Positions 8,507 to 30,555 of a stretch of 49,253 nt of DNA are shown here, piece after piece. The DNA comes from a virus. Position numbers and translations under genes: made by a program. Each line of letters starts with the position of its first letter. Position 1 is the first letter of the stretch. A model generated the notes under the pieces. That model had not been told where the DNA came from and did no database searches. It worked only from the letters and a program-made list of their open reading frames with translations. The DNA is taken from IMG/VR virus record IMGVR_UViG_3300017941_000014, positions 1 to 49,253 of that record. One strand, written 5' to 3'.

Positions 8507-9049
8507 GCACCATTCTGGATCATCGGAGAACACAAAGAAATGCGGATTTTTGACCCGCTCCGCTACTCTGTTGCACGCAGTCAGGTAGTACTCCCGCGTC
8601 ATCGGACCAAAATCGTCGGCTATACGGTCGGTGCGTCGAACCGAAACCATCACGCTCGATTCGCCTGCTTTAGAGATTTCTTGGAGAAGTGACTTTGCTC
8701 GGGGAGTGAATGGGTAGCGGGGTCTGAAGATGCGCAGTAAATCCTCTCGCACATCTGCGAAATACTTCTCCGTCTGCCAGTAACCCTCAAGACAGTCACC
8801 ATCCTTGAGCTTTGTAACGATCTCCGCACTGTAGGGCATCCCCTGTTCGCAAACCGTTGGTCTAATGCCCATCACTCTCGCCTCTTTAACTCCTTCCCAC
8901 AGGCCCAAGTTATATCCACGATATGCCTGCCTTGTGTAGTGGGTAACGTCGAGTCGGAGCGGAATCCCTAGACGCTTGGCTTGAGCGTATGCCATTGCGT
9001 ACTCAAACATCTGGTTTCCAGTTCCGCAGGAGAGGCAGGCGGTCAGCAC
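8504..9049 (-). CDS. GT11 alpha-1,2-fucosyltransferase-like, N-terminal part, truncated by amber stop
   Basis: 181 residues from a GTG at 9049, which has GGGAGGAGAG before it and overlaps the previous gene by seven bases. The family signature is clear: GTGNQMFEYAMAYAQAKRLG near the start, GYWQTEKYF in the middle, SVRRTD (nucleotide-sugar contact region) and FFVFSDDPEWC at the end. GT11 enzymes are about 290 residues and transfer fucose from GDP-fucose. The missing third lies in the same frame after the TAG. An upstream TTG at 9085 is possible but fits the family start less well. Confidence 0.8.
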   Translation of the reverse strand: MLTACLSCGTGNQMFEYAMAYAQAKRLGIPLRLDVTHYTRQAYRGYNLGLWEGVKEARVMGIRPTVCEQGMPYSAEIVTKLKDGDCLEGYWQTEKYFADVREDLLRIFRPRYPFTPRAKSLLQEISKAGESSVMVSVRRTDRIADDFGPMTREYYLTACNRVAERVKNPHFFVFSDDPEWC

Positions 9050-9822
9050 GGGGAACTCTCCTCCCTTTGATGGCTTCCGTGCCAATAACGGATACCTGGA
9101 ATCACTTGATGGTTCTGCATAAAAAGGTTCATCGCCACGCCCAGGATCGGTAAATCACCCCAGCGAAATTTGATGAAGTGTGGGGAGTTCACCATTGCAG
9201 ACAAGAAAGGATGAACTGGATCAGAGCGCATAAAGTCAACCCTAACGACGCAAAGGTTAGTGTATGGGAAGTTATGGTCGTAGAAATCTTTGGGAGGGAA
9301 CTGAGGTAGGTTCTTCCACACATACTGGCGAACATACGTGGACAGGGTTTCGTTTGTTGGTCCGTATGTCTCAGGCTCATAGCGCACCGGCGCAATGTTT
9401 ACCATGAAATTCCTTGCCCAAATGAGGGGGTTTAGCGAAACAGACTTGAGCACGCAATCCTCGTCTAAGCGGAAGATGTACTCAAAGTTGGCGGAGTGCT
9501 CCCATATCTGATACGTGTAGAAACGACACATGCGGCGATATCCGAGAGGAAAATGCTCAGCGTCAACATAATCATAGTCTGCCTCTGATGGCTGGCAGAA
9601 TGAAGAAGACACATCAATAAAGCGCACGTCTTTGTTTTTCTCGCGCGACAAGATGAATTGCTGATGTTCTGCGCTAATGTTTCCCTCGTGCCAGATGATT
9701 AAGGGGTATTGATGTTCTCGGAGGCTGTTTATGTGTTCGTAGACTGACAAATTTCTTTCGATGAGGCTGGAATAACGTTCTGGAGTGGGGTAGGCCCGAC
9801 ATAGGCAGACGATTGCGTTCAT
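9043..9822 (-). CDS. GT15-like (KRE2/MNT1-type) glycosyltransferase
   Basis: 259 residues. The central GYRRMCRFYTYQIWEH followed by FEYIFRLDEDC, and later FIKFRWGDLPILGVAMNLFM with IRYWHG, parallel landmarks of GT15 alpha-1,2-mannosyltransferases (YRHMCRF, a D/E-x-D metal site, RWGDAP). That family is best known from fungi, so its presence in a phage is unusual. The gene overlaps both neighbours by a few bases (ATGA at its start), so it is translationally coupled. Acceptor and sugar are unknown. Confidence 0.7.
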   Translation of the reverse strand: MNAIVCLCRAYPTPERYSSLIERNLSVYEHINSLREHQYPLIIWHEGNISAEHQQFILSREKNKDVRFIDVSSSFCQPSEADYDYVDAEHFPLGYRRMCRFYTYQIWEHSANFEYIFRLDEDCVLKSVSLNPLIWARNFMVNIAPVRYEPETYGPTNETLSTYVRQYVWKNLPQFPPKDFYDHNFPYTNLCVVRVDFMRSDPVHPFLSAMVNSPHFIKFRWGDLPILGVAMNLFMQNHQVIPGIRYWHGSHQREESSPC

Positions 9823-12147: not shown

Positions 12148-13296
12148 CTACGAACCCCATCCGTAAGATACGATTCCAGACCAGGGAGCCAAATTCTGCA
12201 AGTTGGCCGCAGACAATTCCTGACCGCAGACGCGCGTGTTATCGCCAGTCATCAGGAAGGGTTTGAAACCGAAGCCAAACATCTCGTCATTCACCACCCG
12301 GAAGAGCATCTTGTTGGTGTTCATCATTAGCAGGACTTCTCCCACTGTGGCGGTAGTTGTTCCAGCCGTAACCATCGCAGCGATGTTTGACCAAGCGGTA
12401 GCGGTGGCGAAACTCTGAGGGTTAAATGTCGAGGTGGCGTAGTTGCCAAGCAGAGGATCGTTCACACCGTCATTCGTTGACGCTGAGGGAGCATAGTCGT
12501 CAACCAAGATGTTGCAATCCATGATCTGGATGCCGTCCGCGCCCCAAATCACGTCATGGACGATCCCGAAGCGTTGCTGCGTCTGAATGCGTTGCAGCAT
12601 GAAACTGAACAGTGTCTTATTGCAGACGCCAAGGTTGGGAGCTTGATTGCCGCGCCGCGCCTTGAGGTACATCTTTACCAAGTCCTTATAGGTAATCATC
12701 CCCGTAGCGCCAGCCGCCGTTCCGCCCCAATAGACCCAGCCGTTGACTGCGGCACCGACCGCCCCGTTGCGCGTCTGGTTTCCGTATGTCGTGAATGTGT
12801 TCCCATAGTAGGACGGGTCATAGCCATTGTTGAAGATTTCTTCGAGGCCGTTGGGGGCAGAGTGCCGGTCGGAACCTGCGATAGTCTGACCATGCTGCCA
12901 GAGCGCGATATTCCAGAGCGCGTTCATGGTGTGCATTGCGGTGCGTAGGTCAGTGTCTACCATCGAGAAAACGGCGAGTTCACCTTTGTTTGTGATCCGC
13001 AAGTCTTCCAAATACTCCGTGATGTTCACGTAGCATTTCTTGGGATCAAATGCCATCCCACCGATGGTCTGAGGTTTAGAAGTGATAAAGGTTTTCCCAA
13101 TGTCGTAGAAGCCTCCAATCAGAGGCGCGTAGGTGAAGTCGTTTTGCATGAACGCTCCACCCTCAAAGGGCACCAGACAGTGATCCCGCAGATAGGCCAG
13201 AAAAGGCGCACCTTTGAAATACTCGTCCTGAATCACGTCTGGATAAATCTCTTGTAACGTGGTTGCCGATATTTCGTCAAAGAGGGGGTCTGCCAT
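12148..13296 (-). CDS. Major capsid protein
   Basis: 382 residues beginning MADPLFDEISATTLQEIYPD, placed directly after the scaffold gene. Size, position and composition fit an HK97-fold phage coat protein: an N-terminal helix, a beta-rich middle with FGIVHDVIWGADGIQIMDC, and a C-terminal domain with NTNKMLFRVVNDEMFGFGFKPF. The stop is TAG. GGAGTATGACCT lies before the ATG. Confidence 0.88.
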   Translation of the reverse strand: MADPLFDEISATTLQEIYPDVIQDEYFKGAPFLAYLRDHCLVPFEGGAFMQNDFTYAPLIGGFYDIGKTFITSKPQTIGGMAFDPKKCYVNITEYLEDLRITNKGELAVFSMVDTDLRTAMHTMNALWNIALWQHGQTIAGSDRHSAPNGLEEIFNNGYDPSYYGNTFTTYGNQTRNGAVGAAVNGWVYWGGTAAGATGMITYKDLVKMYLKARRGNQAPNLGVCNKTLFSFMLQRIQTQQRFGIVHDVIWGADGIQIMDCNILVDDYAPSASTNDGVNDPLLGNYATSTFNPQSFATATAWSNIAAMVTAGTTTATVGEVLLMMNTNKMLFRVVNDEMFGFGFKPFLMTGDNTRVCGQELSAANLQNLAPWSGIVSYGWGS

Positions 13297-22915: not shown

Positions 22916-23125
22916 TCACCGCTCTTCGTGCACTGTAACGGAAAGGCTGGAGGCAGGACTCAAACCTGCGTCTCTACGGTCGTCAACAAGCTGACTCCGA
23001 GGTTCTGCCCGTTGAACTACACCAGCCATACATGCCCAGTTCCTAGATTTGCACCTCGGGCACTCGACCGGGCCCGCTACCCTCGACTTCCAACTGTACC
23101 TGCATTTCTGACAATTACAAAACAT
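22916..23125 (-). CDS. Zinc-ribbon protein, first gene of the leftward block
   Basis: 69 residues from the ATG at 23125. The zinc ribbon is MFCNCQKCRYSW followed by VECPRCKSRNW (C-x2-C and C-x2-C pairs), a small phage family with a W after each pair. The -10 box of the promoter at 23133-23160 ends seven bases before this ATG, so the message would be leaderless. The second half of the frame overlaps a tRNA-like sequence, so the true C-terminus may be shorter. Confidence 0.6.
   Translation of the reverse strand: MFCNCQKCRYSWKSRVAGPVECPRCKSRNWACMAGVVQRAEPRSQLVDDRRDAGLSPASSLSVTVHEER
22945..23026 (-). tRNA. tRNA-like sequence with expanded anticodon arm
   Basis: 82 bases on the minus strand. Acceptor GCTGGTG pairs with CTCCAGC (one T-T mismatch). 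The D-arm is GTTC/GAAC with GG in its loop, and the T-arm is GCAGG-TTTGAGT-CCTGC. Between them no 5-bp, 7-base anticodon arm can be drawn: CGG/CCG closes a 17-base loop that can itself fold as GTCA/TGAC. It is about ten bases longer than a normal tRNA, and the T-loop lacks the usual C56. No isotype can be assigned. It may be a degenerate tRNA, a tRNA with an insertion or a mimic. Confidence 0.5.
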
Positions 23126-23132
23126 AGTCATA

Positions 23133-23160
23133 ATCATATTAGGGTTTCGGTTGCTGTCAA
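23133..23160 (-). promoter_or_regulatory. Sigma-70-like promoter for the leftward late block
   Basis: Minus strand TTGACA, 16-bp spacer, TATGAT. The -35 is preceded by GATTTCTC, and the same 14-mer GATTTCTCTTGACA occurs again at 24117-24130. Predicted start is at or beside the ATG at 23125. Confidence 0.7.
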
Positions 23161-23614
23161 GAGAAATCGACGGGAAAAGAAAAAAAGAAAACCAAAAACA
23201 AAATTCGTGGTGACTCAGGGCATACGTAAGCGCAAAGGGGCCAGCCTCGGACTATGGGAAGGGGTAGAGGTTGTGGTAGTCTATACGATCTGTGACGCAT
23301 CCTGGTCCATCCTATGTGACCACCCGGCGCCCGGTCACGGTCGCAAACTTCACCGAAAGTGTGCGTAAAGTCTGCTAATGGGCTAGGGTTAGGGCTTTTT
23401 CGATACTACGTAGCCTGCTAAGTATTTGATAATAAAGGATGTTTCGTAAAGTTGGTCTTATAAGTAGTCTTATGTTAACCTAAGTAAATTACCCAACTTT
23501 ACTACCAACTGCCTATATTTCGGCACATATATGGCAATCCGCATATATAGCCTGAATAAGTCTGTGCGCCGTGGTTTTGACCTATTCTGACTTGTCAAAT
23601 GACACTTAGGACTT
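23161..23614. other. Non-coding control region, possible origin
   Basis: No convincing gene. 23170-23207 is an A-rich purine tract. 23400-23610 is AT-rich and holds a perfect 10-bp inverted repeat, GTAAAGTTGG at 23446-23455 and CCAACTTTAC at 23493-23502, around CTTATAAG and GTTAAC palindromes, plus two CATATAT elements near 23525-23550. AT-richness and palindromes between divergent blocks suit a replication origin or regulatory site; neither is shown. Confidence 0.4.
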
Positions 23615-24122
23615 AAAAGCCAGTACTTAGCTTTTCCCTTCCGCTTTATGTATACCAGCCAAACAGTAGTCAATCAGAAAGGATTACACGCAAGTCAGGG
23701 GCTTAGGGTCGCAAGTCAGCGGAGCCGGTTGTATCCGGTGGCCTGACCTAGCAAGGTAACTTGACTTGCTTACGAGGCTCACTCTTGAATCTTGCGCCTT
23801 GTGCCTTTGAGCATAAAATCTAGAGTTGAGCGGGACTTTACCGCATGTGCGGCTGGCTCGCCCGCTATTGTCTATTTTTTTCTGGTCTGATTGTGATGGC
23901 GTGGCATTGTTGCGCAGTATCCCGAGCGACCGCTTTAGCTGGTCCTGAGTTGTCAGGTCAATTGTTTGGGGGTCGAATTTTGGCTGGAAGTTGTTCATTC
24001 CCGCTTCACCCGGGATACTGGGCTTGAATGGGTGAAGCATCCAAGCCCGAATCTTGATCCATCCTGCTGGCTGCGCAAGCCAACATTAGGCTAAGGGTAT
24101 TCCTGGGGATTGTGATTGTCAA
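23615..24122 (-). other. Duplicated transcription unit, copy A
   Basis: Collinear in reverse orientation with 29681-30203. Exact shared blocks include a 15-mer at 23793-23807 (GGCACAAGGCGCA core), a 14-mer at 23699-23712 (GCGACCCTAAGCCC) and a 16-mer at 23656-23671 (GACTACTGTTTGGCTG). A 19-mer at 23893-23911 matches at 17 positions. It has its own promoter (24094-24122) and ends in an AAAAGC/GCTTTT hairpin (23615-23635). Read in the frame of copy B it gives QCHAITIR and KAQGARFKS but is broken by stops and shifts. It is therefore either a decayed gene copy or a non-coding RNA. A 104-codon frame starting at 23998 (MNNFQPKF) also exists; it looks incidental. Confidence 0.5.
24094..24122 (-). 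promoter_or_regulatory. Promoter of duplicated unit copy A
   Basis: Minus strand TTGACA, 17-bp spacer, TACCCT, followed by TTAGCCTAATGTTG. The same order (TTGACA, spacer, TA---T, TTAGC, TGTTG) is seen at copy B. The -10 is weak. Upstream context GATTTCTC matches the late promoter. Confidence 0.45.
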
Positions 24123-24147
24123 GAGAAATCTTCATCCCTTCGCAGGG

Positions 24148-24212
24148 TAGTGGAAAATGTTTTCCACTAATAGTGGTAAACGCTTTCCACTAGTAGCAAA
24201 TGCTTACAACTA
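24148..24212. promoter_or_regulatory. Three tandem operator-like palindromes
   Basis: 22-bp sites at 24148-24169, 24171-24192 and 24191-24212. The first is a perfect 10-bp inverted repeat (TAGTGGAAAA / TTTTCCACTA) around TG. The second keeps TAGTGG and CCACTA ends. The third is degenerate (TAGTAGCAAA / CTTACAACTA arms). They lie between the divergent leftward and rightward units, the usual place of repressor or activator sites. No repressor gene was recognised nearby. 24213-24332 holds no other clear element. Confidence 0.65.
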
Positions 24213-24332
24213 TTCGGTCAATGAGTTTTTGGCTATCTATTGTATTATCAACAACTTGCGATTACTCGGTGTTTGGTTCTTGCATTGCTCTATTCCATTG
24301 TGCGCAGAAACGGAAGCGCAAACGAGGGAACC

Positions 24333-24437
24333 ATGAGGATAAAATGCTTGGACGGATTCAGTTTCACAGATGTGCTCACTTTGGCGGTTGCGCTAGAAAT
24401 TGTTGTCCTATATTACTTCGGCTGGTGCCGCATCTGA
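24333..24437 (+). CDS. 34-residue membrane peptide
   Basis: Starts MRIKCLDGFSF after GAGGGAACC and contains one hydrophobic segment (VLTLAVALEIVVLYYFGW). First rightward gene after the operators. Too short to place in a family. Confidence 0.5.
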   Translation: MRIKCLDGFSFTDVLTLAVALEIVVLYYFGWCRI

Positions 24438-24494
24438 GCCCAGTGCTTAGCATCCTCGGGTAGGCAGTACGCTTAGACAAGGGAGGGAGTGACA

Positions 24495-24710
24495 ATGGCC
24501 AGCACATTCAACATAACGGCTCGTGAGACGGAAGAGGAATTGAAACAGCGAGAGATTCCCCCGGCGCTTTGGTTCGACTATCCCAATCAAGCGTGGGTGA
24601 GGAATGGTAGGTACATCCGCTGCGGTCATCCTGAATCTATGGATTGCGGCTGCTATGGCCGTGAGCACGAGAGCCAAGTTGCTGACTCTTCGCTTTATAA
24701 CCAAGCCTGA
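24495..24710 (+). CDS. Small early protein with Cys/His cluster
   Basis: 71 residues. GGGAGGGAG precedes this ATG, so it is preferred over a GTG six bases upstream. Aromatic-rich middle (ALWFDYPNQAWVRNGRYIRC) then GHPESMDCGCYGREHE, a possible metal site. No family recognised. Confidence 0.65.
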   Translation: MASTFNITARETEEELKQREIPPALWFDYPNQAWVRNGRYIRCGHPESMDCGCYGREHESQVADSSLYNQA

Positions 24711-24785
24711 CCCCTGCGGCCAGCACGCGACTGGCCGGAGTAGTCAAAAGGGTGGCGACCTACGCCAGAAAGAGAATGACAACCA

Positions 24786-25262
24786 ATGAGCAAAGGTATT
24801 CGACGTAATAGCCCACTACTGAAAGCTATTTTCGAGAATGCGCGAAACGTGCAATGCTACACTCTTGACAATTGCTTTTCGGGAAAGCCAATGAGGGACC
24901 GGCCTTGCTACTACGAGAATGGCGAACTCAAGCAAACAACTCAAGGCGGATATCTGGCTGCGATTTACCGCATGTTCTCTTTCGCTAGAGTCAGCGATGA
25001 TGGGGGTGGACGCTTTAACTTACACGTCACGATGCGGGAATGGTACGAGTTTATGTCTGAAGCGAGACAACAGCACGCCTTGTGTTACTGTGCTTCATTG
25101 CCTGGAACGACCTGCGATTTTTGCGCCGGTTTAAGACACGGGACTATTGACGATTACCGATCGACAATTGAGTGGCTTGAAGCCACTCCGGGCGGGTGCG
25201 TGGATTTCACGGCGAGGATCGCCCGATTAAAGGCCGGGCTACAGGAATTGGGCGAAGCGTGA
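24786..25262 (+). CDS. Early protein, unknown
   Basis: 158 residues. Begins MSKGIRRNSPLLKAIFENAR and has several Cys (CYTLDNC, CYCASLPGTTCDFC) that could bind a metal. The C-terminal part is helical (DFTARIARLKAGLQELGEA). It overlaps the following gene by four bases (GTGA). Function unknown. Confidence 0.7.
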   Translation: MSKGIRRNSPLLKAIFENARNVQCYTLDNCFSGKPMRDRPCYYENGELKQTTQGGYLAAIYRMFSFARVSDDGGGRFNLHVTMREWYEFMSEARQQHALCYCASLPGTTCDFCAGLRHGTIDDYRSTIEWLEATPGGCVDFTARIARLKAGLQELGEA

Positions 25263-25441
25263 TTGACCAACGCAAACTCGAAGCGCTGGACCGCCGAATC
25301 ACGATTCTGTTACAGCGGAGGATTGAGGCTGGTTCGCAAGACTCGCTGGAAGAGTTTGACCGGATCGACGATGAATTGAGCGCCTTGCGGATCAAGAGAG
25401 TCGAGCTAGTTACCCAAGGGAAAGAGGCACATTCTGAATGA
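25259..25441 (+). CDS. Short coiled-coil protein
   Basis: 60 residues from a GTG overlapping the upstream stop. Almost wholly a charged helix (RKLEALDRRITILLQRRIEA, EFDRIDDELSALRIKRVEL). Lies directly before the annealing protein gene and could be a partner for it; inference from position. Confidence 0.6.
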   Translation: MIDQRKLEALDRRITILLQRRIEAGSQDSLEEFDRIDDELSALRIKRVELVTQGKEAHSE

Positions 25442-25453
25442 GGGGGAGGAAAC

Positions 25454-26404
25454 ATGGAAGCGCAGGAAATCCTTGAAGCCGAAGAGGTAACGGATTTTGG
25501 GTGTGTGGTTCACAGCGCATGTATTGGTAAGCTCGCGCTGGCGCTTGCGAAGGCGCAAGGGCAGATCAAGGGAGCGTTGAAGGACAGCACCAATCCCTTT
25601 TTCAAATCCAAGTATGCCGACCTGCAATCGGTTTGGGAGGCTTGCCGAGCCCCACTTTCTGCTAATGGCCTGTCTGTTATCCAGCTCCCTGGATCAGCCA
25701 CGGAAACTGTTCGTGTGTTTACCTACCTGCTGCATGAATCTGGCGAATATATCGGATCGGAACTGCTAATGACTCCCGTGAAAACCGATCCTCAGGGCAT
25801 CGGAAGTTGCATTAGCTATGCACGCCGTTATGCGTTGGCATCACTCGTCGGCATCTACCAGGCTGACGATGATGCCAACTCAGCTAGCGAAAAAGCTGGT
25901 GCTGACGGTCACAATCAAGCGCAGCGGGAACTCGTCTCTCAAAAGGTCGAAGCGCTGAAATCTAAGGTGGAAAATCCCAGCGGAGATATTCAGTCCTTAC
26001 TCACTGAGTTCGAAAAGGTCGGCGTAACGCCCGGCCAAGTAGCTACTAGGCTGCGAAAGAATCCTAGCGATGCCACGCCGGAGGAAATCGCCATCTTGAA
26101 GTCCACGCTTACCGACATCAAGGCTGGGAAGGCACACTGGTCGGGCAAGGCGAACAGCAAGCCGCCCGCCACCGCTGAGGCTGACCGCCCAATCAACGCC
26201 AATGAGTTAAAGGTGTTTTGGGGTGCTGTGAAGGGTGGATGGGGTTGGACGGAGGAAGAGACCCACGCTCAATTAATGGGCAAGTTTGGAATCCGTAGCG
26301 TAAAGGAAATCACCAAGTCACGGCTTGATGAGATTATGAAGTACTTTCAAGACAACCGGACACGTCCAGCGCAGCAAGTCACAGATGAAGACTTTCCATA
26401 CTGA
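25454..26404 (+). CDS. erf: ERF-family single-strand annealing protein
   Basis: 316 residues. The ERF core is clear: LALAKAQGQIKGALKDSTNP, FFKSKYADLQSVWEACR, then GSCISYARRYALASLVGI at about 116-133. ERF proteins anneal single strands during phage recombination and genome circularisation. The C-terminal ~90 residues form a separate helical domain, and the last residues VTDEDFPY resemble the acidic tip of bacterial SSB (DDDIPF), which recruits repair proteins. GGGGGAGGAAAC precedes the ATG. Confidence 0.88.
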   Translation: MEAQEILEAEEVTDFGCVVHSACIGKLALALAKAQGQIKGALKDSTNPFFKSKYADLQSVWEACRAPLSANGLSVIQLPGSATETVRVFTYLLHESGEYIGSELLMTPVKTDPQGIGSCISYARRYALASLVGIYQADDDANSASEKAGADGHNQAQRELVSQKVEALKSKVENPSGDIQSLLTEFEKVGVTPGQVATRLRKNPSDATPEEIAILKSTLTDIKAGKAHWSGKANSKPPATAEADRPINANELKVFWGAVKGGWGWTEEETHAQLMGKFGIRSVKEITKSRLDEIMKYFQDNRTRPAQQVTDEDFPY

Positions 26405-26416
26405 CAGGAACCCAGC

Positions 26417-26731
26417 ATGAGCGACTTCGATGGAAGAGGCTACCGATTTGCCAGTTACTTTGAACCGTGCAGATGCGGGCGCACCAAGACGGAAGCAATG
26501 ACTTTCTGCGATTCATGTCTAGCGGTACTACCTGCCACGCTGAGCGGGGTCGCGTTTTGGGCTGACGTGCTCAATGACGCGACTCCGTGGCGGCTGGCAC
26601 GCTACAAGATCGCAGAAAAGTTTCTCGAGGAAAGCGGACGGTTCACAACGGGGAAGGTTCCTGATTGGTCAGACGCGAAGGAATTATTTCAGATCACAGG
26701 GAGTCCCTATCATGTCGGTTTGGGGCGATAA
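26417..26731 (+). CDS. Zinc-finger-like early protein
   Basis: 104 residues. FEPCRCGRTKTEAMTFCDSC gives a C-x-C and C-x2-C pair near the N-terminus. A helical second half (ARYKIAEKFLEESGRF) follows. Directly downstream of the annealing gene and overlapping the next gene by 20 bases. May be a recombination accessory; inference. Confidence 0.65.
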   Translation: MSDFDGRGYRFASYFEPCRCGRTKTEAMTFCDSCLAVLPATLSGVAFWADVLNDATPWRLARYKIAEKFLEESGRFTTGKVPDWSDAKELFQITGSPYHVGLGR

Positions 26732-26915
26732 TCCTGAATGGTTCGATGAGTGGCTTGAGAAAAGGGCGCTGGAAGGCAGATTCGGCCTGGAGGTACAAGC
26801 AAGGGCTGAAGCTGGTGACTTTGAAGCCTACATGGAATGGAACAAACTTGATCCCACTGGCGAGTTGGGGACCGAAGCCACTCAGGATTATTGGGAACGG
26901 CGAATGTCTGATTGA
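26712..26915 (+). CDS. Small acidic early protein
   Basis: 67 residues, MSVWGDNPEWFDEWLEKRAL start, rich in Trp and acidic residues, helical. AGGGAG lies about ten bases before the ATG. Longer upstream in-frame starts overlap the previous gene too far. Unknown function. 26916-27076 contains no gene I can support. Confidence 0.6.
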   Translation: MSVWGDNPEWFDEWLEKRALEGRFGLEVQARAEAGDFEAYMEWNKLDPTGELGTEATQDYWERRMSD

Positions 26916-27076
26916 TTTTTCCGTGGATGGCCCTGGATAGCAGGACCAGCGGGAAAGGGAGGCGCGTGCGGCGAAAAGTTAAGGGAGACGGCACGGCCCT
27001 TACAGCAATCCGTCACACCTAGAAGAGGCCGTAATGGTTACTGACGGCCACGCGCTTTACTACTGAAGGAGGAATC

Positions 27077-27292
27077 ATGGCACAGAAATTGACGACTGAG
27101 GCAAAAGTGGTGAATCTTTTTATGGACGTTGACTTGGGAGAGACCGCACGTCTGCTGGCTCTCGCTCGTCAGATAGTCCACAAGCGGCAAGGTGCGGTCA
27201 CTGTAACGGCAAAGGCCCGCAAGCCCCGTGCGGACAAAGGATCGAAGCGCAGCCAAATGGCTCCGATGCCACAAATGCCGAAGGAGCAATGA
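27077..27292 (+). CDS. Small early protein with basic tail
   Basis: 71 residues after a strong GGAGGAATC site. Helical first half (LGETARLLALARQIVHKR), then a Lys/Arg-rich and Pro/Met-rich tail (KARKPRADKGSKRSQ). Possibly nucleic-acid binding. Confidence 0.65.
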   Translation: MAQKLTTEAKVVNLFMDVDLGETARLLALARQIVHKRQGAVTVTAKARKPRADKGSKRSQMAPMPQMPKEQ

Positions 27293-27453
27293 TGTCTGCC
27301 GTTTGGTGGCTTCCATTCTCGGTCGTCTGCCTCAGCTTTGAGATAATAGGCCGGGGTATGTGGCGCGGGTATCGAGGCGGATTAGCTTTTCTCGGCCTTG
27401 TCATGGCGGCGATGGGGATGGCGGGAATAGCTTTGTTGGTGGCGGGAAACTGA
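27292..27453 (+). CDS. 53-residue two-helix membrane protein
   Basis: The ATG overlaps the upstream stop (TGATG). Two hydrophobic segments (AVWWLPFSVVCLSFEIIG and LAFLGLVMAAMGMAGIALLV) flank a basic GMWRGYRGG turn. One of many tiny early membrane proteins here. Confidence 0.6.
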   Translation: MSAVWWLPFSVVCLSFEIIGRGMWRGYRGGLAFLGLVMAAMGMAGIALLVAGN

Positions 27454-27475
27454 CTATAAAGGAGGACAAATCATC

Positions 27476-27697
27476 GTGAAAATCACAATAGAAAGCACGA
27501 CTAAAGTAGTGACCGCTAATGGAATCCAATGCCGGGTATGGGAAGGCGAGACCGCAAGTGGGATTAAGGTTCAATGCCTTATTCCTCGCATTGCGGTTAG
27601 TAGAGATGATGATACGGGCCAATTTGAGAAAGAATTACAAGAACAGCGAGCACCTTTAGCGGAGGTAATGGCCTTCCCACTACGCATGATTCTCTGA
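27476..27697 (+). CDS. Small conserved-type phage protein
   Basis: 73 residues from a GTG after GGAGGACAAATCATC. Beta-rich opening MKITIESTTKVVTANGIQCR, then VWEGETASGIKVQCLIPRIA and QEQRAPLAEVMAFPLRMIL. I recall this arrangement as a recurrent short phage protein of unknown function. Confidence 0.7.
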   Translation: MKITIESTTKVVTANGIQCRVWEGETASGIKVQCLIPRIAVSRDDDTGQFEKELQEQRAPLAEVMAFPLRMIL

Positions 27698-27748
27698 ATT
27701 GGAACGATGGTCACGCGCAACCGAAGGCTTATCTTGGAGGTAAAATCA

Positions 27749-27928
27749 ATGGCTAGGATTGGTGAAAGGGTATCGTGGGAGGACGAAGGCGGCAACCGCC
27801 AAGTGGCGAGTTTGGTTGACTACATCCCCGAGGTTGACGTGGTACTCTTGCGCGACGACTACGGGAATTACATGGCGCTCAACGTAGCTGAGATCGAGCA
27901 GGGCATTGAGTACGAGGCGGAGGCATGA
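27749..27928 (+). CDS. Small SH3-like protein
   Basis: 59 residues from the ATG that follows GGAGGTAAAATCA. The strand pattern MARIGERVSWEDEGGNRQVA, ASLVDYIPEVDVVLLRD suggests a small beta-barrel. Fold guess only. Overlaps the next gene by four bases. Confidence 0.6.
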   Translation: MARIGERVSWEDEGGNRQVASLVDYIPEVDVVLLRDDYGNYMALNVAEIEQGIEYEAEA

Positions 27929-28236
27929 TGAGCCGATTTCACATAAATATTGTGCATCCTGAGTGGCTCGCTTATTCAAATCCAGGTAGGACCTTGCAGT
28001 TGTTTCACCAAGGTAAGCTTCCTCAGTCGGTAGCTGGTTGGATGCTAGTCGTGTCGCTAACACGTCCCCTTCGTGCGATTTACGGAAGCGATTTCCGAGC
28101 AGCCTTAGCTCTTCTTTGGAGGTCTATTCATTCCATGATTTATACGCGGTATCTGAGACTGAAATGGTCAATTTTCGGATACCACGAGGACGAGCACGAG
28201 CATCAGGAGGAGGCTGATGATGGCCTGGCCCCATAA
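27925..28236 (+). CDS. Early protein, unknown, His/Glu tail
   Basis: 103 residues beginning MMSRFHINIVHPEWLAYS. Hydrophobic, aromatic middle (AALALLWRSIHSMIYTRYLR) and an acidic, His-rich tail (YHEDEHEHQEEADD). Overlaps the next gene by 20 bases. Confidence 0.5.
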   Translation: MMSRFHINIVHPEWLAYSNPGRTLQLFHQGKLPQSVAGWMLVVSLTRPLRAIYGSDFRAALALLWRSIHSMIYTRYLRLKWSIFGYHEDEHEHQEEADDGLAP

Positions 28237-28414
28237 CAGCTTGCCGCCGAAACCTTGGGTTCCGGTGGAGTCAATCCCGTTTAGCGAAGCCGTGCTTTGC
28301 GTGGACTGCAACCTCATTGTAAAGTCTACGAACGACCATTGCCCCGTGTGTGATGGACATTCTATTCTTAGACTTTCGGCTGTGCTGGACAGGAGTGTGC
28401 CGAATGCCCGCTGA
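28217..28414 (+). CDS. Zinc-ribbon early protein
   Basis: 65 residues. AVLCVDCNLIVKSTNDHCPV with a following CDG is a C-x2-C / C-x2-C zinc ribbon. AGGAGG precedes the double ATG. Overlaps both neighbours. Confidence 0.65.
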   Translation: MMAWPHNSLPPKPWVPVESIPFSEAVLCVDCNLIVKSTNDHCPVCDGHSILRLSAVLDRSVPNAR

Positions 28415-28775
28415 CATGAAGCGCTATCCGCTCGGCTGGGATGATTTTAGCATTGAGATTCGCTTTGACCGTGCTGGGGGCCGCTGTGAATGCACAGGAG
28501 AGTGTGGACTTCATAGGAATCACGACTTATACCATGAAGCATCGCGACGTTGCTTTGAGAGGCACGGACTTAGGGCAGCCTATGCAAAAGGTGTGGTCGT
28601 ATTGACTGTTGCACATCTTTGCGCCTGTGATCCTCCCTGCATGATTCCTGAACACGTCAAGGCAATGTGCCAGCGATGTCACTTGAGAACCGATCAAAAG
28701 CTTCATGTCCAGCATCGTCATAGAAATAAGCGCCTAAAGGCAGAGCAAGCCGGACAGCTAACATTGAAGGTGTAA
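28404..28775 (+). CDS. HNH-type nuclease-like protein
   Basis: 123 residues from MPADMKRYPLGWDDFSIEIR; AGGAG lies upstream of this ATG. A Cys-rich zinc part (GGRCECTGECGLH) is followed by VLTVAHLCACDPPC and EHVKAMCQRCHLRTDQKLH, the arrangement of a widespread phage HNH family (AHL, then N-L-A-C--CH). The usual Asn before the second Cys pair appears as His (EHVKAMC), so activity is uncertain. Confidence 0.75.
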   Translation: MPADMKRYPLGWDDFSIEIRFDRAGGRCECTGECGLHRNHDLYHEASRRCFERHGLRAAYAKGVVVLTVAHLCACDPPCMIPEHVKAMCQRCHLRTDQKLHVQHRHRNKRLKAEQAGQLTLKV

Positions 28776-28776
28776 A

Positions 28777-28992
28777 ATGGCCAGCCGTCAAAGGCTTTAT
28801 CAGGTTCAGAAGATTGCGAACGGAAGATGCAGCAATTGCGGCAGAAAGCGGAAGCACTATGCAAGCCTTTGCGATTCCTGCCAAATGCGATTCCGCATTC
28901 GCTGGCGCAAATGGGCAGGGTTCCGACCCTGGAGGAAAGGTCGCCCAGGCAGACCGCCGAGGATCACGGAAGTGGCGTATAGGCCAGGGTGA
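28777..28992 (+). CDS. Zinc ribbon with AT-hook-like tail
   Basis: 71 very basic residues. GRCSNCGRKRKHYASLCDSC is a C-x2-C / C-x2-C ribbon, followed by WRKWAGFRPWRKGRPGRPPR with the GRP core of AT-hooks. Looks like a small DNA-binding regulator; a candidate ligand of the operator sites, by inference only. Confidence 0.7.
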   Translation: MASRQRLYQVQKIANGRCSNCGRKRKHYASLCDSCQMRFRIRWRKWAGFRPWRKGRPGRPPRITEVAYRPG

Positions 28993-29019
28993 GATTTATA
29001 TAGAAATTGGACAATGATG

Positions 29020-29028
29020 TGGTATACT
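29020..29028 (+). promoter_or_regulatory. Extended -10 promoter of nuclease gene
   Basis: TGGTATACT with no good -35. The -10 ends six bases before the ATG at 29035, which would make the message leaderless. Confidence 0.45.
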
Positions 29029-29034
29029 TTTCTC

Positions 29035-29691
29035 ATGGATAAAAGATGCCAATTTTGTAAGAAGCAATTTCACAAGCGGGAAACTGATTCTCTGCGTTAC
29101 TGGGGCGAGAGGAAATTCTGTCAACGTAATTGCTGGAGAGAATTTCTAAAAGAGAAAAGTAAATCCAGAAATCTATCAATGTTAAGTGTTGCGAAATTTT
29201 GCTCTACAACTCAGGAATTTTGCTCAAAATCTAAAATGAAACCCAGGTCGGCACAGGTTCTTTTACGAAAACTTGGTATTAAATTACCAAGTATTGATCG
29301 TCCTCCATGTCCGTCACAGGATGAGAAAAAAGCAGCGAATTGGTTAGTGTCTAAGGGCTTCAAACCGATCTTCCAACCTTACAGGCGTTCTTACGACCTA
29401 ATTGTTAATGGTAAGCGGGTAGAAATCAAATCCGCTCGACCTCGGAATTGGAAGTGGCGCGTAAATATTCATCGACATAACCATTTAGATGAATCCAAAG
29501 TCGATGTCTATATGTTTTCGCTGTACAACTTTCCAGGAGGTAAGAGTGGGCTACACATAATAGTTCCATCTCCAGTTAAGAGGTCCACCATGTCCTTTAC
29601 CGTAAGAAGTCTGATCTCCAAATGGTCAAGGTACGTTAATGCCTTTGAGTTCCTGGAATCAAAAAAGATGAATTTAGGACTTGACAAGTGA
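29035..29691 (+). CDS. Zinc-finger PD-(D/E)XK-type endonuclease
   Basis: 218 residues. The N-terminal finger MDKRCQFCKKQF pairs with RKFCQRNCW. A helical linker leads to the nuclease core RRSYDLIVNGKRVEIKSARP at about 126-145 (D, then E-x-K). The gene is clearly more AT-rich and Lys/Ser-rich than its neighbours and has its own promoter, suggesting recent acquisition, like homing-type or free-standing phage nucleases. Its stop overlaps the next promoter. Confidence 0.75.
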   Translation: MDKRCQFCKKQFHKRETDSLRYWGERKFCQRNCWREFLKEKSKSRNLSMLSVAKFCSTTQEFCSKSKMKPRSAQVLLRKLGIKLPSIDRPPCPSQDEKKAANWLVSKGFKPIFQPYRRSYDLIVNGKRVEIKSARPRNWKWRVNIHRHNHLDESKVDVYMFSLYNFPGGKSGLHIIVPSPVKRSTMSFTVRSLISKWSRYVNAFEFLESKKMNLGLDK

Positions 29692-29710
29692 ATCAAATTT
29701 TTTCTAGAAT
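29681..29710 (+). promoter_or_regulatory. Promoter of duplicated unit copy B
   Basis: TTGACA, 18-bp spacer, TAGAAT, then TTAGC and TGTTG as at copy A. Lies across the end of the nuclease gene. Confidence 0.6.
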
Positions 29711-30203
29711 CTTAGCTGTTGTCGGAGACGCGACCGGCGACGAGGGAACAATTCCAGGGGGAGGCTGCCCAGATCAGCCTCTTCCTCTCCCAGTCTGGGT
29801 GGGAAATGTCAAGTCATTCACGAAATCCCAAACAACCAAAATTGAGAGCCGCCGCTATTTGTGTCCTCGCTTCCGGGTAGCTGTTGAGGCCCCCGTGACT
29901 GTAAAACAATGCTATGCCATCACGGTTAGGAATGAAAATAGAGGCACGGGGCACGCCATGCTCGCAGACGGGCGAGTCAAAAGTCCTCGTGTCTCTTACC
30001 TTGAGCAATATCGTTTTTGGTGTTGGAAGGCACAAGGCGCACGGCACAAGTCTGTTGACTCTTGTACGGCTCCGCCCAGGTCAGAGCATCAGCGCAGAAA
30101 CCATGCCGGCGACCCTAAGCCCTGGCTTTCACCCCTGGCAATCCTGACCGACTACTGTTTGGCTGCTAAAGAGCGAAGGGCAAAGCGAGCCGGATGGCTT
30201 TAA
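29681..30203 (+). other. Duplicated transcription unit, copy B (with open frame 29688-30203)
   Basis: Homologous to the minus strand of 23615-24122. Shared blocks lie at 29905-29923, 30027-30041, 30109-30122 and 30150-30165. Near the start a GAGGCTG/CAGCCTC hairpin (29761-29781) and near the end an AAAGC/GCTTT hairpin are visible. A 171-codon frame spans the unit, but its GTG lies between the -35 and -10 boxes and no ribosome site marks a later start. Against this, matches to copy A in that frame include synonymous changes (QCYAITVR, KAQGARHKS, DYCLA). Coding and non-coding readings remain open. Confidence 0.5.
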
Positions 30204-30213
30204 TGGAGGGATT

Positions 30214-30555
30214 GTGTGTAAAGAGTGGGAAGAGAAGAAAGACGCCGAGGAAATTAGGAAGTTAGCTGAAGAGGATGACAAGCAAGGAAGACGAGCTGCG
30301 ATATTTACTTCGCAGAGCGAAGAGGATGAAGTAAAGCATAAAAGCGAACGCTGTTGGCATTGTGGTGGAATCGGACGATGTGAATGTGTGGCGTGCTTCA
30401 ATATTAATGAGTCTGCTTGCTTGATCTGTGCGCCGATATGTAAAGTGAGGGCTTGGAGAAATTTGGCGTCCTACAGCGAGCGCGTGGGACCATCCGCGCG
30501 CCCTGGCTCGACTATTCACACTCCACCGCAAAGATATATCGAACATTTTCCTTGA
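30214..30555 (+). CDS. Zinc-binding early protein
   Basis: 113 residues from a GTG after TGGAGGGATT. Charged helical N-terminus (MCKEWEEKKDAEEIRKLAEE), then CWHCGGIGRCECVACF and CLICAPIC, a Cys-rich zinc module. Disordered Pro-rich tail. Unknown function. Confidence 0.7.
   Translation: MCKEWEEKKDAEEIRKLAEEDDKQGRRAAIFTSQSEEDEVKHKSERCWHCGGIGRCECVACFNINESACLICAPICKVRAWRNLASYSERVGPSARPGSTIHTPPQRYIEHFP

Follow-up and report, generated by a model that had tools for sequence, protein, structure and literature searches.

The window, i.e. the whole stretch of DNA that was analysed, comprises the 49,253 bases of an IMG/VR record, probably a virus of a soil bacterium. Matches to head protein, portal and terminase models, together with an endolysin, Erf and a replication O-like protein, identify it as a tailed phage. 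Its nearest isolates are the Tunturiibacter phages Tunturi_1 and Tunturi_2, whose terminase and portal are about 30% identical to those of the window. The hosts of both isolates are Acidobacteriota (PMC11924767).

Two segments were characterized, A on the minus strand (24122-23615) and B on the plus strand (29681-30203). Their features are collected in Table 1. Just upstream of the promoter of A, between divergent promoters, lie three tandem palindromes of 20-23 bp (TAGTGGAAAATGTTTTCCACTA and variants, 24148-24213), which as judged by their sequence are likely repressor operators. The promoter of A has a perfect -35 element and a likely, weak -10 element (TACCCT, 24099-24094, read directly), so that it does not pass the consensus scan. 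An exact 14-base repeat, GATTTCTCTTGACA, occurs both in this promoter and at the next leftward promoter (23168-23155), where it precedes the -35 element. The latter precedes a tRNA-like sequence: the Rfam tRNA model matches 22945-23026 (minus) with 38.6 bits, within a predicted 73-aa ORF (22916-23137) and with no ARAGORN call. Just upstream of B are an HNH endonuclease gene (28350-28775, PHROG 1571) and a gene at 29014-29691, whose product has a weak FCS-like zinc-finger match at the N-terminus and, by eye, the look of a PD-(D/E)XK nuclease in its C-terminal half.

Table 1. Positions of the two copies, their promoters and their predicted structural elements in the window.
Feature	Position	Strand	Basis or remark
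Copy A promoter, -35 and upstream element GATTTCTCTTGACA	24117-24130	-	read directly
Copy B promoter, TTGACA-18-TAGAAT, 11/12	29681-29710	+	promoter scan; -35 overlaps last codons of upstream gene
RNA copy A, ~475 nt, stand-alone	23613-24090	-	homology and structure; ends inferred from promoter and terminal hairpin
RNA copy B, ~488 nt	29716-30203	+	homology and structure; ends inferred
Small gene directly downstream of B	30214-30555	+	113 aa, GTG start, zinc-finger-like cysteines
A: hairpin HP1, apical loop CUUCACC (24037-24031)	24020-24048	-	fold and complementarity
A: strand GGGUGAAG complementary to HP1 loop (pseudoknot or kissing loop)	24004-24011	-	
A: 5' strand of long-range helix P3 (GCCA-UCAC-AAUCAGA)	23886-23900	-	
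A: mid hairpin P4, invariant AAAGUCC	23828-23866	-	
A: 3' strand of P3, invariant GACUACUGUUUGGC	23658-23678	-	
A: terminal hairpin AAAAGC..GCUUUU	23615-23635	-	
B: hairpin HP1, apical loop CCCAGAU (29768-29774)	29757-29785	+	
B: strand GUCUGGG complementary to HP1 loop	29793-29799	+	
B: 5' strand of P3 (GCCA-UCAC-GGUUAGGA)	29916-29931	+	
B: mid hairpin P4	29945-29991	+	
B: 3' strand of P3, invariant GACUACUGUUUGGC	30142-30163	+	
B: terminal hairpin AAAGC..GCUUU	30182-30201	+	read directly

The sequence-only reading had described A and B as an inverted duplicate of one promoter-driven unit, and this was borne out. The two segments are homologous, with a local alignment score of 87.5. In the comparison with shuffled sequence, set beforehand as the test on which this claim could fail, the real score was far above all of 300 dinucleotide-preserving shuffles (mean 23.0, sd 2.8, maximum 34.5). 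The elements it had listed were also found, in the same order in both units: TTGACA (24122-24117 on the minus and 29681-29686 on the plus strand) followed by TTAGC and TGTTG, the near-identical block ACAATGCcAcGCCATCAC, the exact 15-mer AAGGCACAAGGCGCA, the exact 14-mer GCGACCCTAAGCCC, the exact 16-mer GACTACTGTTTGGCTG and an AAAGC-GCTTT hairpin ending each unit. Neither local alignment nor a model search with filters off detected a third copy in the window.

Scanning IMG/VR with the 16-mer led to a third copy, C, on contig 3300017988_000011 (L092, record G001), which matches B with 81% identity over 176 nt (E = 2e-37). The alignment of the 5' halves of B and C likewise beats all 300 shuffles. 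Copy C opens with a promoter-like TTGTCA-17-TATCTT, shows the 5' hairpin arrangement of A and B and is devoid of most of the mid domain. Like B it is followed directly by GGAGG-N4-GTG and a short gene, and the start and the N-terminal RAAIFT motif of the gene behind B are kept downstream of C. The two phages share 36% of the amino acids in the terminase and 40% in the head protein. In the 3' domain the identity is 87% between B and C, 83% between A and B and 74% between A and C. From their common position B and C are likely orthologs, in which case A would be an older or faster-evolving paralog. Although A is the most diverged copy, it retains promoter, pseudoknot, hairpins and 3' block. That it keeps every element argues that A is in use and not decaying. 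Just upstream of C in the related phage we noticed, by eye, an IS1595-like transposase gene (8533-9450, minus, on L122).

It had been left open whether the units are a regulatory RNA pair or a gene with a decayed twin. In the coding alternative, the ORF at 29688-30203 (171 aa) would be a protein gene and A its decayed twin, or the copies would be mRNAs with their start just behind the pseudoknot. The sense-strand open frames of A (133 codons) and B (163 codons) are indeed longer than in 98.6% of shuffles (p = 0.014 each), each of the three copies has an ATG behind the pseudoknot, and C has a frame that runs on into the downstream gene. However, the 171-aa frame has no Pfam or PHROG match and no viral relative, the C frame has no phage match, the matching blocks of A and B are in different frames, B is frameshifted with respect to C, and A contains stops. 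Within a 36-codon 3' block of B and C, 24 codons are identical, 3 differ synonymously and 9 non-synonymously, the substitutions being spread 7/7/8 over the codon positions. Thus, neither the excess of synonymous changes in a shared frame that marks a protein gene nor a third-position excess was seen. Blocks of 31 and ~20 nt are unchanged between B and C, and ten consecutive codons are without synonymous change. In contrast, the gene directly downstream has 14/15/26 substitutions, and 11 of its 14 conserved residues have synonymously changed codons. This difference indicates a nucleotide-level constraint that ends at the gene start. The codon-usage score was not clearly gene-like, in a test of little power. 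The earlier observation of a frame with synonymous changes holds locally, but the positions concerned (ACA ATC AGA / ACG GTT AGG) are the 5' strand of a covarying helix. With frames that disagree, conserved blocks free of synonymous change, no match to a protein family and an A copy that retains its elements, the decayed twin is disfavoured, and we regard a coding function as improbable. A pair of RNAs, regulatory or not, is supported by compensated helices, own promoters and the third copy.

The consensus fold of A and B had a z-score of -5.0 against shuffled columns (RNAalifold), and single-sequence folding gave z = -3.1 for A and z = -1.7 for B. For an automatic alignment of all three sequences the RNAalifold value was weak (z = -2.0), since MAFFT misplaces the 5' half of C; for B and C alone it was +0.6. 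Helix P3, in which the block before the mid domain pairs with the invariant GACUACUG, appears in the single-sequence folds of both A and B and can form in C as well. Its pairs in A/B/C are CG/CG/UG, AU/GC/GC, AU/GC/GC, UA, CG/UG/UA, AU/AU/UU and GC, such that 20 of 21 cells are paired and three pairs are doubly compensated, while a slid partner reaches at most 10/21. Past an internal loop, the 3' side of which (ACUACUGUU) is invariant, P3 continues as GCCA:UGGC (GCUA:UGGC in C). The outer stem of P4, a hairpin anchored by AAAGUCC, is paired in 13 of 14 cells with two doubly compensated pairs (slid, at most 9/14), and the inner stem adds one compensated pair. A further helix, P5, joins the region of the 15-mer to that of the 14-mer (AAG:CUU in A and GCA:UGC in B). 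In the 5' part the entire apical loop of HP1 (CUCACU in C) is complementary to a segment that lies 7-9 nt behind the hairpin; this holds in each copy, with different letters every time (shuffle p = 0.018 for A, 0.044 for B and 0.027 for C). The alignment of HP0, HP1 and inner P4 was partly guided by the fold, such that their counts lean towards structure; the weight lies with P3 and outer P4, whose positions are anchored in invariant flanks. The family comprises three copies in two genomes, and the covariation rests on few independent changes.

The G-U pairs in P3 and P4 identify the promoter strand as the sense strand. This bears on the alternative that the copies are a DNA-level element, i.e. 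an origin, packaging or recombination site that is self-complementary by chance. Such a site would suit the near-invariant sequence blocks and the two copies in inverted orientation, but on the other strand the G-U pairs become A-C mismatches, and promoter-like sites precede all three copies. We consider this alternative very improbable. The data support A and B being a structured RNA whose shape was kept while its letters changed, rather than a decayed gene.

How the RNA acts is less certain. With about even confidence we favour that A and B are paralogous genes for a ~480-nt structured non-coding phage RNA with own promoters, which most likely acts free-standing. The main rival is a cis-acting leader, i.e. 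a structured 5' UTR, riboswitch-like or protein-binding, that would control the gene behind it, with A controlling the leftward late transcript. Taken alone, B and C are just as compatible with a leader: each is followed at once by a gene with GGAGG, a GTG start and a conserved N-terminus (AAUGGAGG behind the terminal hairpin of B being the Shine-Dalgarno sequence of that gene), only UUU follows the terminal hairpin in either copy, making read-through likely, and compact pseudoknots are common in leaders. Behind the terminal hairpin of A, however, there is no start site; the next leftward promoter and gene lie ~450-480 nt downstream, this gene being ~480 nt off with its own promoter. The absence of a gene directly behind A is what favours a free-standing RNA. 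In addition, ~480 nt is long for a leader, and no Rfam riboswitch matched up to E = 10. A leader thus appears rather unlikely to us.

In a second cis-acting alternative the copies would be antitermination or late-control RNAs, with one copy per divergent transcript. This resembles the put RNA of phage HK022, a cis-acting RNA that lets RNA polymerase pass terminators and that also occurs once in each of two opposed transcripts. The oppositely directed transcripts of one phage, the location of A next to three palindromic repeats of 20 bp, as is typical of operators, and the covarying paired hairpins agree with such a role. The put sites measure only ~70 nt, however, compared to ~480 nt for A and B, and B, which has a promoter of its own, is located 5.6 kb inside the early block, away from the early transcript start and outside the early-promoter leader. 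We therefore hold antitermination to be as improbable as a coding function.

None of 4227 Rfam covariance models gave a family match to A or B, either in the scan of the window at the gathering threshold or in that of both copies up to E = 10; the sole match on the copies was NEAT1_1 on the other strand (E = 3.5), attributable to chance. At the thresholds tried, these comparisons exclude membership in the families described in Rfam. Short motifs of the copies (CCUAAGCC, GACUA) bear what we take to be a resemblance to group I introns, but Rfam gave no match up to E = 10, GACUA had no UAGUC partner by eye, and no exon pair was seen. A search for antisense targets gave a longest perfect complement elsewhere in the window of 12 nt, by estimate about the chance level; 16-nt matches were those between the A and B loci.

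The scan of IMG/VR with the 15-mer returned 90 stretches, by our own estimate about the chance number for a 15-mer in such a collection. The remaining exact-motif scans of IMG/VR yielded the contig of copy C as the one true relative, and 17 matches from a motif scan of genome contigs were all due to chance. A covariance model of the 3' domain with an imperfect automatic structure (R1) found nothing above noise in 396 Acidobacteriota genomes and 162 genomes of one class. One R1 match of 9.6 bits (13051-13222), in an Acidobacteriota prophage (G288) related by its terminase, overlaps an open reading frame and does not represent a homolog. A recognisable copy is absent from this prophage and from Tunturi_1. 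Separately, we observed upstream of an Acidobacteriota prophage terminase a long G+C-rich non-coding stretch (L141, 13340-13820, minus) with strong hairpins, a z-score of only -0.7 and no Rfam match. Having no Rfam, PHROG, Pfam or annotated-phage match and being known from one other virus only, the RNA would constitute a new virus RNA family.

Among known RNAs the closest in kind are GOLLD, a phage and prophage RNA often >800 nt long, and ROOL, found in phages and prophages with a 659-nt example; both are phage RNAs with loop-loop contacts and of unknown function (PMC12286853). Like GOLLD, the RNA described here is large, structured and phage-encoded, with a conserved 3' part, a variable 5' part, loop-loop pairing and a tRNA-like element nearby. 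It differs in that the GOLLD model of Rfam is not matched (window at the gathering threshold, both copies up to E = 10), the copies measure ~480 nt, two of them occur in one genome and a tRNA array is lacking. Assembly into a multimer made of RNA alone is a further trait of GOLLD. With ROOL it shares a phage origin, several pseudoknots and the lack of a known protein partner, while the Rfam model of ROOL is not matched and A and B are shorter.

In our preferred explanation, a free-standing RNA, A and B would each be transcribed from an own sigma-70-type promoter. In the 5' domain the apical loop of HP1 would pair with the segment just downstream as a pseudoknot or kissing loop. The 3' domain would be closed by P3 with the invariant internal-loop strand ACUACUGUU and would contain P4 and the terminal hairpin. 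B and its putative ortholog C lie ahead of the small gene within the early gene block, and A sits on the opposite strand, which is the late one, next to the putative operators. The RNA may then act in trans as a scaffold or binding partner, with the two copies serving two expression programmes. That it forms a new class of ornate phage RNA in a probable Acidobacteriota phage lineage, kept as two diverged paralogs in one genome that are expressed in two phases of infection and form assemblies by intra- or intermolecular loop-loop contacts, is a doubtful, quite unlikely proposition.

Phages have few large structured RNAs without a known function, GOLLD and ROOL being the examples. With two diverged paralogs in one phage and an ortholog that keeps the structure in a phage with a terminase only 36% identical, the family would be a compact system for testing the role of such RNAs, and the nearest isolates infect culturable Acidobacteriota, though Tunturi_1 is without the RNA.
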